The translations under genes were made by a program, and so were the position numbers. The notes beneath the pieces are model-generated. The model worked only from the letters and a program-made list of their open reading frames with translations. It was not told the DNA's origin and did no database searches. Positions 17,867 through 30,365 of a stretch of DNA of 64,000 nucleotides are shown one piece after another (the first letter of the stretch is position 1; each line of letters opens with the position of its first letter). The stretch comes from Campylobacteraceae bacterium (GTDB lineage Bacteria; Campylobacterota; Campylobacteria; Campylobacterales; Arcobacteraceae). The stretch spans positions 1-64,000 of the forward strand of contig JABXII010000003.1 of assembly GCA_013373175.1 (NCBI GenBank), read 5' to 3'.

Positions 17867-18400
17867 TTGACTTGGAAAATTTCAAAATCATTTGATTTTT
17901 GTTATGGACATAGGGTTTGGTCTCAAACTTTAGATAGTGAGTACTCACTTGACCCTTGTTTAAAATGTAGGCACTTACATGGACATCAAGGTAAAATTGT
18001 AATCTTTTTAGAAGCTCAAAAATTAAAAGATGGAATGGTTACAGACTTTAAACACTTAAATTGGTTTAAACAATTTTTAGATGATGTATTGGACCATAAA
18101 TTTATTCTTGATATAAATGATCCCCTTTACCCTACTTTGCTTCCTCATATAAAAAAAGAGGATTTAATCCATTTTGAAGAGGGTTATTATATTCCAGATA
18201 TGAATAAAATCAAAGATGAAGAGACTCATATTAAAGAGATGTATGAAGGGTATGTTATAGTTGATTTTGTACCTACAAGTGAGAACTTATCTGCTTGGTT
18301 TTTAGAAATTGCAAGTAAAAAAATGCAAAATCTTGGAGTAAAAGTTTCAAGTGTAGAGTTTGCAGAAACTCCAAAAAGCAAAAGTCATGTCTTTGCTTGA
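17867..18400 (+). CDS. queD: 6-carboxy-tetrahydropterin synthase family protein
   Basis: Converts dihydroneopterin triphosphate to 6-carboxy-5,6,7,8-tetrahydropterin, the first committed queuosine step. Zinc-site histidines are in FCYGHR (about residue 12) and LHGHQGK (about 40-46); a cysteine sits just before in DPCLKCRH. TDFKHLNW and the terminal SSVEFAETPKS carry the further conserved acids and His. The 177 residues are longer than E. coli QueD (about 120) because of an insert at about 85-125. The start is TTG, supported by AAGGGA seven bases upstream and by sitting right after queC. Confidence 0.92.
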   Translation: MTWKISKSFDFCYGHRVWSQTLDSEYSLDPCLKCRHLHGHQGKIVIFLEAQKLKDGMVTDFKHLNWFKQFLDDVLDHKFILDINDPLYPTLLPHIKKEDLIHFEEGYYIPDMNKIKDEETHIKEMYEGYVIVDFVPTSENLSAWFLEIASKKMQNLGVKVSSVEFAETPKSKSHVFA

Positions 18401-19142
18401 AGTTAATGAAATCTTTGGTCCAACTATTCAAGGTGAAGGGAAATTAGTTGGAACACCTTCTATTTTTATAAGGTTTGGAAAGTGCAACTTTAAATGTGAA
18501 GGTTTTAATGTAGAATACGAAACTCCAAGTGGTGTAAAAAAATGTTCATGTGATTCATATTATGCAGTTGATATGGCATTTAAAGACCAATGGCAAAAAA
18601 TGACTGCGCAAGATGTAATAAATGATGTTTTACAACTTGAACCAAACTATAAAATTGATATTGTTATTACTGGTGGAGAACCACTTTTATACTGGAAAAA
18701 TGAAGAGTTTCAAAAACTATTAAAATATTATGTGCAGAATAATTATAAAGTAACTATTGAAACTAATGGCTCACTAAATATAGATTTAAATGAAATTTAT
18801 CAGAAACAAATACTATTTTCTATGAGTGTGAAATTATCAAATTCACTAGAACCTTTAAAGAAAAGAATCAACATAAATACACTTACAAAAATCATTAATG
18901 AAACAGATGGTTCATACTTAAAGTTTGTAATAGATGAAGGCTTTAAAGAACAAGCTAGTTATGAGATAAAAGAGCTTATAGCCCAACTTCCTAAAGTGGA
19001 TGTTTTCTTAATGCCTATGGGTGATACAGCTAAACAAATAAATGAAAATAGTGAGGCAGTTATTAACTTAGCAATTGAAAATGGATATAAGTATTGTGAT
19101 AGACTTCATATAAGAGTTTGGGACAATAAAAGAGGTGTTTAA
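18387..19142 (+). CDS. queE: 7-carboxy-7-deazaguanine synthase (radical SAM) with atypical cluster loop
   Basis: Radical-SAM enzyme that contracts 6-carboxy-tetrahydropterin to 7-carboxy-7-deazaguanine. The N-terminal EIFGPTIQGEGK and TGGEPLLYW motifs identify QueE. The [4Fe-4S] cysteines are C33 and C37 (CNFKC); the third is most likely C55 in CDSYYA, giving CX3CX17C instead of the usual CX3CX2C, with an extra C53. The ATG at 18387 gives 251 residues starting MSLLEVNEIFGPT; an upstream in-frame ATG (18360) would lie inside queD and add nothing conserved. It overlaps queD by 14 bases. Confidence 0.93.
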   Translation: MSLLEVNEIFGPTIQGEGKLVGTPSIFIRFGKCNFKCEGFNVEYETPSGVKKCSCDSYYAVDMAFKDQWQKMTAQDVINDVLQLEPNYKIDIVITGGEPLLYWKNEEFQKLLKYYVQNNYKVTIETNGSLNIDLNEIYQKQILFSMSVKLSNSLEPLKKRININTLTKIINETDGSYLKFVIDEGFKEQASYEIKELIAQLPKVDVFLMPMGDTAKQINENSEAVINLAIENGYKYCDRLHIRVWDNKRGV

Positions 19143-19153
19143 AATATTTTAGA

Positions 19154-19227
19154 TATAATCGTCGTTCAATATTAAAGAACAATTCGTTGTTCCCTTTTAA
19201 TTGGGGAACAATTAAAAGGACATATTT
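19154..19227 (+). promoter_or_regulatory. fabG promoter and candidate Shine-Dalgarno switch
   Basis: TATAAT at 19154-19159 in TTTTAGATATAATC. The leader can form hairpin 0 (GAACAA 19177-19182 with TTGTTC 19187-19192, TTCG loop), hairpin A (TTGTTCCC 19187-19194 with GGGAACAA 19204-19211) and hairpin B (CCTTTTAATT 19193-19202 with AATTAAAAGG 19210-19219). B buries the ribosome site AAAAGGA (19214-19220). A excludes both 0 and B, whereas 0 and B can coexist. Confidence 0.6.
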
Positions 19228-19971
19228 ATGAATTTTACAGGTTCTAATGTATTAGTTACAGGTGCTAGTAGAGGAATTGGAGCAGAAATTGCAAAAACTC
19301 TTGCAAGTTTTGGTTTAAAGGTTTGGATTAACTATAGAAGTGGAGCCGAAGCTGCTGAAAAAATCAAAGAAGAGATTGAAACTGCTGGTGGAAAAGCTGC
19401 AATTGTTAAAGCAGATGTAACAAAAGAAGATGAATTTACTGCTGCAATTAAAACAATTGTTGATGCAGATGGAGAACTTTCATATTTAGTTAATAATGCA
19501 GGTATCACAAAAGATAAATTAGCATTAAGAATGTCAGTTGAAGATTTCAATGACGTTATTGCTGCAAACTTAACATCTGCATTTATTGGTTGTAAAGGTG
19601 CTTTAAAAGCTATGGGTAAAAAGAAGTTTGGTTCTATTGTTAATATCTCTTCAATTGTTGGTGAGATGGGTAACCCGGGACAAACTAATTATTCAGCTTC
19701 TAAAGGTGGATTAAATGCGATGACTAAATCTTTTGCTAAAGAAGCAGCTGCTAGAGGTATTAGATACAATGCTGTAACTCCAGGGTTTATTCAAACAGAT
19801 ATGACTGATGAATTAAAAGATGAAGTTAAAGCTGAATATGAGAGAAATATTCCATTAAGTAGATTTGGTCAACCAAAAGAAATAGCGGATGCAGTAGCAT
19901 TTTTGTTAAGTGATCACTCATCGTATATTACGGGTGAAATACTAAAAGTAAATGGTGGATTATACGTTTAA
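19228..19971 (+). CDS. fabG: 3-oxoacyl-ACP reductase
   Basis: NADPH-dependent reduction of 3-oxoacyl-ACP in fatty-acid elongation. The 247-residue short-chain dehydrogenase has the cofactor loop TGASRGIG (about 11-18), NNAG (about 89-92), catalytic Ser in NISSIVG (about 140) and YSASKGG (about 153-159). The C-terminus SSYITGEILKVNGG is typical of FabG. It heads the fabG-acpP-fabF-accA cluster but has its own terminator. Its leader carries alternative hairpins that could control translation. Confidence 0.96.
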   Translation: MNFTGSNVLVTGASRGIGAEIAKTLASFGLKVWINYRSGAEAAEKIKEEIETAGGKAAIVKADVTKEDEFTAAIKTIVDADGELSYLVNNAGITKDKLALRMSVEDFNDVIAANLTSAFIGCKGALKAMGKKKFGSIVNISSIVGEMGNPGQTNYSASKGGLNAMTKSFAKEAAARGIRYNAVTPGFIQTDMTDELKDEVKAEYERNIPLSRFGQPKEIADAVAFLLSDHSSYITGEILKVNGGLYV

Positions 19972-26406: not shown

Positions 26407-27687
26407 GTGGAAACGTTTGACATTAAAAAACTATCTAAGCCTTTTGACATAGAAATTGACTCAATTGCAAGTGATAAATCAATATCACATAGATGTGCAA
26501 TGTTTTCACTATTTTCTAATGAAACTTCATATATTAAAAATTACCTTACAGCAGAAGACACATTAAATACTTTAAGTATAGTAGAACAATTAGGTGCTAA
26601 AATCACACGAGATGGTTCTACTGTAGAAATTACACCAACTAATAAGCTAACTGAACCAAAAGATATTCTTGATTGTGGTAACTCAGGAACTGCAATGAGA
26701 CTGTTTTGTGGACTATTAGCTTCTATTGATGGTGCATTCACTTTAACTGGTGATAAATACCTTAAAGAGCGACCAATGAAAAGAGTGGCAGACCCACTAA
26801 GAAGTATTGGTGCAAATATTGATGGTAGAGAAGAAGGTAATAAAGCTCCTTTATTTATTAGAGGAGTAAAAGAATTAAAACCTTTTACTTATATTTCGCC
26901 TGTTGATTCTGCACAAGTAAAATCAGCAATGATACTTGCAGCTTTAAGAGCTAATGGTGTATCAAAGTATAAAGAGAATGAACTAACAAGAGACCATACG
27001 GAAAGAATGTTAAAAGGTATGGGAGCTAAGTTAGAAACAGATGAAGAAGGGTTTATAAATATTCATCCTTTAAAGGGTCTTTTAAAGCCATTAAAGATTA
27101 CAGTTCCAACGGATCCTAGTTCTGGATTCTTTTTTGCAGTTGCTGCTGCAATTACAAAAGACTCAAGAGTTGTAATAAAAAATGTATCTTTAAACCCAAC
27201 AAGAATTGAAGCATACCAAGTTTTAAAAAGAATGGGTGCAGAGGTTAACTTTATTGAAAAAGAGAATATTTATGAGCCTATTGGAGATATTGAAGTAAAA
27301 CACAAAGAGCTAAATGGTGTTGTTGTTGAAGATAATATCTCTTGGTTAATTGATGAGCTTCCAGCACTTTCAATTGCTATGTCAATTGCAAATGGAAAAT
27401 CATTAGTAAAAAATGCAAAAGAGTTAAGAGTAAAAGAGTCAGATAGAATTAAAGCTGTTGTTTCAAACCTTGAAAAATGTGGGGTAACTTACACTGAATT
27501 TGAAGATGGTTATGAAATAATAGGTGGCACTATCAATAAAGCCTCTATTGACTCTCATGGAGACCATAGAATTGCTATGAGCTTTGCAATAGCTGGTACT
27601 TTATGTGATATGGAAATAAATGATGTTGATTGTATTTTAACTTCATTTCCAAACTTCAAAGAAATCCTTGACTCTTTATATTATTAA
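26407..27687 (+). CDS. aroA: 5-enolpyruvylshikimate-3-phosphate synthase
   Basis: Sixth step of the shikimate pathway. The 426 residues include [13 protein letters not shown] (about 20-32), [18 protein letters not shown] (about 88-105), LKERPM, and the C-terminal LRVKESDRI and [13 protein letters not shown] motifs. The glyphosate-region loop reads GNSGTAMR, so it is the sensitivity-type loop by pattern (inference). GTG start with AAGGA upstream; it follows pheT by ten bases. Confidence 0.96.
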
Positions 27688-27755
27688 AAGTAACTCGTTA
27701 CTCTCTTTAGAGTTTGCTTCTTTAATCAAGATTTACTTTTGATGTTAAAAGAAGA

Positions 27756-27806
27756 TATAAAATTTGGTTCCCTTTAAAATGGGAACATTTTTAAAGGATA
27801 ATACTT
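27756..27806 (+). promoter_or_regulatory. ispH promoter and candidate Shine-Dalgarno switch
   Basis: TATAAAAT at 27756-27763 puts the transcript start near 27767, so the RNA would begin with GGTTCCC. Hairpin A pairs GTTCCC (27767-27772) with GGGAAC (27781-27786). Hairpin B pairs CCTTTAAAA (27771-27779) with TTTTAAAGG (27789-27797), burying AAAGGA (27793-27798). A and B exclude each other, the same design as the fabG leader. Confidence 0.6.
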
Positions 27807-28640
27807 ATGAAAGTAAAACTAGCATCAAGCTATGGCTTCTGCTTTGGAGTAAAAAGGGCAATTGAAATTGCTCAAAAATATGAAAATTCTGCAACAATGG
27901 GTCCATTGATTCATAATCAAAATGAAATTGATAGACTAAAAACTGACTATAATGTAGGTTTATATAACAATCTAACAGATGTTAAACCAGATGATACAAT
28001 CATTATTAGAACACATGGTATTCCTAAAAATGACTTAAAAGATTTAAGAAAAAAAGATGCAAAAGTTATAAATGCTACCTGTCCATTTGTTACAACTCCA
28101 CAGCAAATAGTAAAGAAAATGTCAAAAGAAAATTACTCTATTTTAATCTTTGGAGACCAAGATCATCCAGAAGTAAAAGGTGTAAAATCTTATGGTGAAG
28201 ACCAAGATGATGTACATGTAATTTTAACTGCTGAAGAACTAGATAATTTAAACTTTAAATATGACAAAATTGCTACTGTTGCACAAACAACAAGAAAAAA
28301 AGAGATTTACTTAGAGATTGTAAATAAACTTATTCTTAAAAATAAAGAAGTTAGAGTATTTAATACAATTTGTGATGCAACATTTGAAAACCAAGATGCA
28401 GCAAGAGAACTATCAAAAGAAGTTGATGTTATGGTAATTATTGGAGGTAAAAACTCTTCAAATACTAAGCAATTACACCATATTTGTGTAGAAAACTGTA
28501 AGGATTCATACCTAATAGAAAATGCCAAAGAACTTGATTCTGCATGGTTTAAAAACAAGAACCTTTGTGGTATTACAGCAGGGGCTAGTACTCCTGATTG
28601 GATTATTCAACAAGTAGTTGATGAAATAGAAAAATATTAA
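27807..28640 (+). CDS. ispH: 4-hydroxy-3-methylbut-2-enyl diphosphate reductase
   Basis: Last step of the non-mevalonate isoprenoid pathway, making IPP and DMAPP with a [4Fe-4S] cluster. Cluster cysteines are in YGFCFGVKRA (Cys 12), NATCPFVT (about 93) and FNTICDATFENQ (about 192). The conserved IRTHGIP, GDQDHPEVKG and GITAGASTPDWII motifs are present. The 277 residues are slightly shorter than E. coli IspH. IspE of the same pathway is at 57605. The leader contains alternative hairpins over the ribosome site. Confidence 0.96.
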   Translation: MKVKLASSYGFCFGVKRAIEIAQKYENSATMGPLIHNQNEIDRLKTDYNVGLYNNLTDVKPDDTIIIRTHGIPKNDLKDLRKKDAKVINATCPFVTTPQQIVKKMSKENYSILIFGDQDHPEVKGVKSYGEDQDDVHVILTAEELDNLNFKYDKIATVAQTTRKKEIYLEIVNKLILKNKEVRVFNTICDATFENQDAARELSKEVDVMVIIGGKNSSNTKQLHHICVENCKDSYLIENAKELDSAWFKNKNLCGITAGASTPDWIIQQVVDEIEKY

Positions 28641-28712: not shown

Positions 28713-30365
28713 ATGGGTATCGATGATATTGAATTAGGTGAAGACTTTGATTTTGAGAAAATGCTTAATGAGTCTTTTGAGAATGCTGAAAATAACTCTG
28801 TAGTTGATGGTGTAATTGTAGAAATTACTAATGATAGTGTACTTGTTGATGTTGGACAAAAGATTGAAGGTAGATTAAACCTTTCAGAAATCACAATTGG
28901 TGGTGAAGTTCAATTTAAAGCTGGTGATACAATCTCTGTTATGTTAATGGGAAATAAAGGTGAAAGACCAAATATTTCTTACAAAAAAGTTTTACAAAAA
29001 GAAAAATTTGATAACTTTGTAAAAGAACATGGTGAGAATGTTGAAGATGTAACAATTGAAGGTAAAATCATTTCTGTTAAAAACAGAGGTGGATTTATTA
29101 TTGAAGATGATTCAGGATTAGAATACTTCATGCCAATGGCACAATCTTACTTAAAAACTCACGGAGCAATTGGTAAAAAAGTTAAAGCTAAAGTTTTAAA
29201 AGTAAACGAAGCTCAAAACTCAATCATTGTTTCTAGAAAAAAACTTATTGAAGAATCTAAAGAGCAAAAAGATTCTAAAGTAAATGAAATCTTAGAGAAA
29301 AACGAACCAGTAAACGGTATCGTTAAAAAAATCACTTCTTATGGTATGTTTATTGATTTAGGTGGAATTGATGGTTTAGTAAACTACAATGAAATCTCTT
29401 ACAAAGGGCCTGTTAACCCTGCAAATTACTATGACGAAGGTGATGAAGTATCTGTTGTTGTATTATCTTACGATAAAGCAAAACAACACTTATCATTATC
29501 TATCAAAGCTGCGTTACCAAATCCTTGGGACGAGATCAAAGACGAATTAGAAGTTGGTGATACAATTACTGTTACTGTTTCTAACTTTGAATCTTATGGT
29601 GCATTTGTTGATTTAGGAAATGATATTGAAGGTTTACTACATATCTCTGAAATTTCTTGGAACAAAAACTTAAAAAATCCAAAAGATTTATTAACATTAG
29701 GTGAAGAAGTTAATGTTGAAGTTATTGAACTAGATGTTGATAAAAAAAGATTAAGAGTATCTTTAAAAAACCTACAAGAAAAACCATTTGCTAAATTTGT
29801 AAAAGAGAACAAAGTTGGTGATGTTATTCAAGGTAAAGTTGCTACATTAACTGATTTTGGTGCTTTCGTTACAATTGGTGAAGTAGATGGACTATTACAC
29901 AATGAAGAAGCTTCTTGGGAATCAAATGCTAAATGTAAATCACTTTATAAAAAAGGTGACGAAGTTGAAGTTAAGATTATCAAAATTGATAGAGAAAAAG
30001 AGAACATCTCTTTATCTATTAAAGAAATTTCTGAATCTCCAGCTAAAAAATTCCAAAATGAACACAAAATTGGAGACATCGTAAAAGGTGCTGTTAAAGA
30101 TAAAAAAGATTTCGGAATTTTCATTAAATTAGATGACAACTTAGATGGTCTAATCAGAAATGAAGACTTTGGTCCATTAAATGTTGAAGAAGTTAATGTT
30201 GGTGACGAATTAGAAGCAGTAGTAGTAAATATCGACACTAAGAAAAATAGAGTAAGATTATCTGTAAAAAGATTAGAGCAACAACAAGAAAGAGAAGTTC
30301 TAAAAGCAGTTAATGATGATACGTCTATGACATTAGGTGATTTACTAAAAGACCAAATTAAATAA
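28713..30365 (+). CDS. rpsA: 30S ribosomal protein S1
   Basis: mRNA-binding protein needed to start translation of weakly structured messages. The 550 residues hold six S1-type OB-fold repeats (about 22-87, 105-170, 195-263, 280-350, 365-437, 450-523), each with the G-x-V/I-x5-G-x-F/Y-V/I-D/x-L-G pattern, for example KKITSYGMFIDLGGIDGLV and SNFESYGAFVDLGNDIEGLL. The upstream spacer has two TATAAT boxes, so it can be expressed apart from ispH. serA follows after 12 bases. Confidence 0.95.
   Translation: MGIDDIELGEDFDFEKMLNESFENAENNSVVDGVIVEITNDSVLVDVGQKIEGRLNLSEITIGGEVQFKAGDTISVMLMGNKGERPNISYKKVLQKEKFDNFVKEHGENVEDVTIEGKIISVKNRGGFIIEDDSGLEYFMPMAQSYLKTHGAIGKKVKAKVLKVNEAQNSIIVSRKKLIEESKEQKDSKVNEILEKNEPVNGIVKKITSYGMFIDLGGIDGLVNYNEISYKGPVNPANYYDEGDEVSVVVLSYDKAKQHLSLSIKAALPNPWDEIKDELEVGDTITVTVSNFESYGAFVDLGNDIEGLLHISEISWNKNLKNPKDLLTLGEEVNVEVIELDVDKKRLRVSLKNLQEKPFAKFVKENKVGDVIQGKVATLTDFGAFVTIGEVDGLLHNEEASWESNAKCKSLYKKGDEVEVKIIKIDREKENISLSIKEISESPAKKFQNEHKIGDIVKGAVKDKKDFGIFIKLDDNLDGLIRNEDFGPLNVEEVNVGDELEAVVVNIDTKKNRVRLSVKRLEQQQEREVLKAVNDDTSMTLGDLLKDQIK

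Follow-up and report, generated by a model that had tools for sequence, protein, structure and literature searches.

Translational riboswitches are built on an anti-SD/anti-anti-SD platform, in which two exclusive hairpins compete, one of them hides the Shine-Dalgarno (SD) sequence, and a conserved structured domain lies upstream. The leader of ispH in a 64,000-nt stretch of Arcobacteraceae DNA (hereafter the window; source genome of 2.76 Mb in 38 contigs) has the same layout. However, a genome contains about 10-30 copies of this element, most of them intercistronic, and the genes behind them are unrelated; the element has no known aptamer and no Rfam match. Short hairpin-rich repeats next to genes, such as Correia/NEMIS, ERIC, BOX and RUP, are occasionally tandem or nested and can affect mRNA, as in our case. 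Unlike these repeats, the element is oriented in sense with respect to the following gene and contains the SD, and it has diverged in sequence with compensated pairing and no recent burst. RNA thermometers also use an AU-rich SD-hiding hairpin, and dnaK and dnaJ-like genes are among those behind our element, but here a stable competing hairpin is conserved and the genes are mostly not heat-shock genes. In the nut sites (boxB-boxA) of rrn operons, a hairpin is likewise followed by a CUUUA-type single strand; however, our element resembles the boxA consensus only partly, and ordinary rrn leaders of relatives carry other sites.

The one relative of these bacteria to have been fully analysed was said to possess few types of ncRNA. 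Arcobacter sp. L was examined by Stav et al. 2019 (PMC6429828), who reported novel motifs and gave no name to some that were confined to Arcobacter. Our element may be one of them. In the open-access literature searched, no published description of the element was found. With Rfam 15, the window gave no match at the gathering cutoff, and seven element loci gave only sub-threshold matches at chance level, none of which overlapped an element. A position inside operons, an SD of its own and a nearly balanced, covarying two-state fold are a combination known for few multi-copy RNA elements. Should the element act as a switch, dozens of genes within operons would have their expression set by one factor; should it be a domesticated repeat instead, it would show clearly how a repeat family came to control ribosome binding sites.

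Anatomy of the ispH and fabG copies

The element before ispH consists of an upstream module, M1, and a downstream module, M2 (Table 1). Its 5' end overlaps the stop codon of aroA (27685-27687) and its 3' end coincides with the ispH start. M1 comprises two covarying hairpins, H1 and H2, with CUUUAGRRUUUG between them, and extends 86 nt upstream of M2. This longer element was recognised from ispH leaders of relatives and from other GTTCCC matches before unrelated genes. The columns of CUUUAGRRUUUG are mostly 96-100% conserved in 108 copies, with G41 at 89% and both R positions variable. In H2, the lower stem is paired in 98.7% of cells with double changes at 5/7 pairs, and the upper helix in 98.9% with double changes at 5/5 pairs.

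Table 1. Features of the ispH and fabG copies and of adjacent genes, in window coordinates
Feature	Position	Strand	Basis or detail
Whole element before ispH, M1 + M2, ~127 nt	27681-27807	+	covariance model (CM) R1 match, 121.1 bits, E=1.6e-21
H1 hairpin, AGTAA-CTCG-TTACT	27689-27702	+	98% of cells paired and double compensatory changes at 7/7 modelled pairs, over 107 distinct copies
Near-invariant single strand, CTTTAGAGTTTG; family consensus CUUUAGRRUUUG	27705-27716	+	column conservation, 108 copies
H2 hairpin	27717-27754	+	lower stem CTTCTTT 27717-27723 / AAAGAAG 27748-27754
H2 upper helix, variable	27725-27729 / 27739-27743	+	ATCAA / TTGAT
A-rich linker joining M1 to M2	27755-27765	+	column frequencies
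Hairpin A, SD-free state	27767-27786	+	GTTCCC/GGGAAC, 8-nt loop; 88% of cells paired across family
Hairpin B, SD-hidden state	27771-27797	+	CCTTTAAAA 27771-27779 with TTTTAAAGG 27789-27797; mutually exclusive with A
SD of ispH, AAAGGA, 3' arm of B	27793-27798	+	GG-to-start 6-10 nt in most copies
ispH, 4-hydroxy-3-methylbut-2-enyl diphosphate reductase	27807-28640	+	NCBIfam TIGR00216, 315 bits
S1-domain protein, rpsA-like, 3' of ispH	28713-30365	+	four S1 domains
H1-like hairpin at fabG, GAACAATTCGTTGTTC, joined straight to M2, H2 absent	19177-19192	+	sequence
M2 at fabG	19189-19221	+	A 19189-19194/19204-19209; B 19193-19203/19209-19219, SD inside B; CM R2, E=4.4e-5, whole genome
fabG	19228-19971	+	Pfam PF13561

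A first, sequence-only reading of this DNA had pointed to GTTCCC-N8-GGGAAC before ispH and GTTCCC-N9-GGGAAC before fabG, each followed by paired SD arms, and both sites and their pairing were confirmed. They are the sole such sites in the window (27767-27786 and 19189-19209), with 0 expected in shuffles, and a search for GTTCCC-N5-15-GGGAAC palindromes through the entire 2.76-Mb genome returned these two only. In the fabG copy, the B arm CCTTTTAATT(G) pairs with (C)AATTAAAAGG. Judged from sequence, this reduced copy looks like a full element from which H2 was lost when the GTTC motifs of H1 and M2 were joined; in another genus (L165), fabG is preceded by the full element. The gene before fabG (18360-19142) is by eye a queE-like radical-SAM protein, and a queD-like frame lies 5' of it.

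Two other readings of the leader were tried and rejected. A conserved promoter between H2 and the M2 hairpin was dropped, as column frequencies across family copies showed no conserved -10 hexamer in the linker between M1 and M2 and a generic promoter scan gave weak matches only. A short upstream ORF in M1 (UUG CUU CUU UAR) would have AGGA too near to UUG, and on reading its frame is broken in several variants.

A family before unrelated genes

The covariance model R1, built from 12 element copies, found 10 copies in the source genome at E<1e-7 and matched 44 of 61 Arcobacteraceae genomes, with 0-29 copies per genome among related genomes. Over 150 genomes drawn from the order, matches were restricted to the source genome, nine other Arcobacteraceae and eight genomes of other families. 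The sequence-only reading had named a genome-wide search against a control as its test, and the pattern GTCCCN{8,10}GGGACN{5,10}AAGGA gave ~97 matches in 16 genus genomes versus 0 with the pattern reversed. Its second test, loss of pairing in arm B of relatives, likewise did not refute the design: B is retained in most relatives in which the element is present, though in some the element itself or a portion of B has gone.

Of the 108 copies, 104 are followed immediately by the start of an ORF in sense orientation, whose SD forms the 3' arm of B. Automatic assignment gave 97 of these; five rubredoxins that fell below the length cut-off, together with two frames that are short or broken, make up the rest. 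Two of the other four copies are internal tandem copies. In most copies, 6-10 nt separate GG from the start codon. Since a same-strand gene lies upstream of 96/108 copies, and 52/108 start no more than 15 nt from its stop codon, most copies are probably intercistronic. These counts, together with a linker that has no conserved -10 hexamer, do not agree with the earlier expectation of a hairpin right at the 5' terminus of the transcript, at least as a rule for the family.

In the source genome, the full element precedes ispH, a dnaJ-like gene, a HIT protein gene, mnmG, cysK, an aldehyde dehydrogenase gene, hisH, sufC, an exoX-like exonuclease gene and dnaK, and M2 only or a reduced element precedes genes for a Mrp-type P-loop NTPase and a trxA-type thioredoxin, ddl and fabG. 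The element or its 3' module thus stands before ~14 unrelated genes in this genome alone, and the proposal that it coordinates fatty-acid and isoprenoid synthesis is not supported. In other genomes, the N-termini encoded downstream, named by eye and not by profile, include those of nif, urease, hydrogenase, P-II, rubredoxin, prs and folA products and more.

The two modules also occur apart. In a different family of the order, M2 stands without M1 before rpmA, which encodes ribosomal protein L27 (L272, L273 and L352; G187 and G116), and M1 alone precedes adk in another genome. Searches with M2 beyond Arcobacteraceae gave few convincing matches (rpmA and nifU-like in g35; hflK-like in G038), the others being weak. 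An M1-like module of hairpin, CTTTAGTATTTG and hairpin lies immediately 5' of 16S rRNA in all three rrn copies of G131, from another family (L270, L284). Ordinary 16S leaders of relatives have no M1 and carry TCTTTAA/TTCTTTAA sites instead; G131 is the only genome with M1 before 16S. In addition, M1 without M2 forms dispersed repeats in G112 and G125, again of another family (L252, L254-L269), with 8 and 19 R1 matches, mostly not before genes and within longer repeated sequence.

Covariation and balance of the two folds

Across 107 distinct copies, the four helices have 96.2% of cells paired and a covariation score of 0.585, compared with 0.170 after shuffling and ~0.06-0.11 when slid. For B, the score is 0.295 versus 0.067 shuffled (gap-free set, 29 M2 sequences). 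We also re-dealt the 3' arms of B among copies (58 distinct pairs, 2000 permutations). Own arms pair at 7.07/8 positions beyond CC/GG, whereas exchanged arms pair at 5.75 (sd 0.13, maximum 6.28), and B weakens from -9.0 kcal/mol with own arms to -4.6 kcal/mol with exchanged ones. AT-rich arms, on which the sequence-only reading had cautioned that they give some pairing by chance, raise B pairing somewhat, as the baseline of 5.75/8 shows.

Orthologous leaders give the same picture. Before exoX, the arms are CCCTAAAAAAATAG/CTAATTTTTTAAGG in the source genome and CCCTTTAAATTGG/CCAATTTAAAGG in G004, entirely different in sequence and paired in both; before ispH, CCTTTAAAATG/CATTTTTAAAGG in the source genome is replaced by CCTTTTTTGATG/CATCAAAAAAGG in G004 with pairing kept. 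The suggestion that arms which differ and yet pair reflect covariation is upheld by these leaders and by the exchange test, and so is a two-state SD-hiding design common to ispH and fabG with compensatory changes in its arms. Single-sequence folding energies are unremarkable (z = -1.7 and -2.1 for the two sites), and some copies have a recurrent C-U mismatch, or worse, in B. It is the comparative evidence, namely the pattern count, the arm exchange and the orthologous leaders, rather than single-sequence thermodynamics, that is decisive for the reality of the SD-hiding design. Moreover, the compensatory changes imply long-term constraint on the element.

In 40 distinct copies of standard geometry, A has an energy of -8.1 +/- 0.5 and B of -9.0 +/- 2.1 kcal/mol, and B is the more stable in 19/40. 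The values are -12.1 (A) and -11.8 (B) kcal/mol for the exoX copy and -13.6 (A) and -12.7 (B) kcal/mol for the fabG copy. Hairpin A is not universal across the family (Table 1). At dnaK, three genomes have lost A and retained B, an indication that the constant function is to hide the SD.

The element thus has two conserved folds that exclude each other, and in one of them the SD is hidden, as in a translational switch; we consider that the ispH hairpin is probably part of an unnamed Arcobacteraceae family of cis-acting structured RNAs controlling translation of the next gene. At the level of sequence, comparison among copies establishes the structure, the competition between A and B and the fixed site before start codons. 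M2 is a two-state hairpin. In state A, GGUYCC pairs with GGGAC(C) and leaves the SD free; in state B, CCUU and the loop of A pair with the AAGGA arm, and the SD is hidden. Switching in cells, its direction and the role of M1 we infer as follows. During transcription A would be completed first, and B would become possible once the SD arm is made. Because A and B are nearly equal in energy, even a slight input might tip the balance. M1, with H1, CUUUAGRRUUUG and H2, would be the conserved part most likely to receive this input. The downstream genes share no pathway, and hence a general factor acting through M1, for example an RNA-binding protein or the ribosome itself, seems more plausible than a pathway metabolite. 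M1 need not be a translational sensor, since it is also found without M2, in dispersed repeats and before 16S rRNA. More tentatively, the family may represent a new class of bistable intercistronic module, in which, across Arcobacteraceae, one general signal acting via CUUUAGRRUUUG resets translation of single operon genes (chaperones, Fe-S assembly, nif, tRNA modification).

Other explanations

The strongest competitor of translational control is mRNA processing or stability: a nuclease would cut H1/H2 between genes, and the 5' end so created on the downstream transcript would be shielded by hairpin A. An intercistronic element that begins at the upstream stop codon, with a long H2 stem and with M1 directly before 16S rRNA in G131, would suit this function, and RNase III cleavage has been documented for Correia elements (review PMC10969869). 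However, processing leaves both the covariation of the SD arm with the 5' side and the occurrence of M2 without M1 unexplained, and we regard it as an unlikely, although serious, alternative.

A mobile or recombining intercistronic repeat of the MITE, REP, Correia or BOX type might survive through its own SD, with structures that serve spread or are tolerated. Copy number from 0 to 29 across related genomes, tandem copies with a 109-112 bp period, dispersal of M1 alone in another family and hairpin inserts within some copies speak for such a repeat. Insertion in both orientations, as in MITEs, is not what we see: the copies that were read are all in sense to the next gene, 104/108 of them directly before a start codon. 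Reading of the copies revealed no terminal inverted repeats or target duplications. Copies within one genome (identity 0.65) are hardly more alike than copies elsewhere (0.63), but orthologous copies are closer (0.72, and up to 0.94 between genera for the HIT gene), so that a recent burst did not take place, and the compensatory changes show long-term constraint. Mobility as the main explanation is rather improbable.

The order of boxB and boxA in rrn operons is resembled by that of hairpin and UCUUUAGRRUUU in M1. M1 could then be a nut/boxA-like antitermination site protecting long operons, and M2 a separate SD hairpin; an intercistronic site, with one copy before 16S rRNA, would be in line with this. 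We find it very improbable, as the ordinary 16S leaders of relatives have other sites in place of M1, short two-gene operons carry M1 too, and CUUUAGRR deviates from the boxA consensus, CUUUAGRRUUUG resembling the UGCUCUUUAAC-type core only partly. The processing, mobile-repeat and antitermination explanations could be partly true together.

Transcription attenuation, with hairpin A as an intrinsic terminator, has very little to recommend it. Hairpin A of ispH followed by ATTTTT scores terminator-like, but a GC stem with a U-run is not found in all copies: at least 5 T in the 8 nt after A occur in only 46/98, and the sequence after A varies with the B arm and may contain few T, for example ATCAAAAAAGG at ispH of G004. 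Least credible of all is a pathway-specific fatty-acid/isoprenoid switch, or autoregulation by the S1-like product of the gene behind ispH; both window copies do precede lipid-precursor genes and the rpsA-like gene does lie 3' of ispH, but the element also stands before dnaK, sufC, mnmG, cysK, hisH and ddl here and before nif, urease and hydrogenase genes elsewhere, and S1 autoregulation as a family function was rejected because the downstream genes are unrelated.

Some features of individual copies may be added. Genes of nif type lie behind many copies, several of them within a few kb (L136, L163, L176, L180, L181, L186, L204 and L217, in G001, G005, G021, G072, G078 and G082). Tandem copies with a period of ~109-112 bp occur at L099/L353/L359 (ispH of G015), L213 (G006) and L181 (G082), and their internal copies were without an intact SD where read. 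Finally, hairpin inserts of ~30-40 nt are present in the M2 loop at L095, L040, L172, L198, L199 and L205; several of them end in GGCACC, and they apparently form another small nested repeat family.
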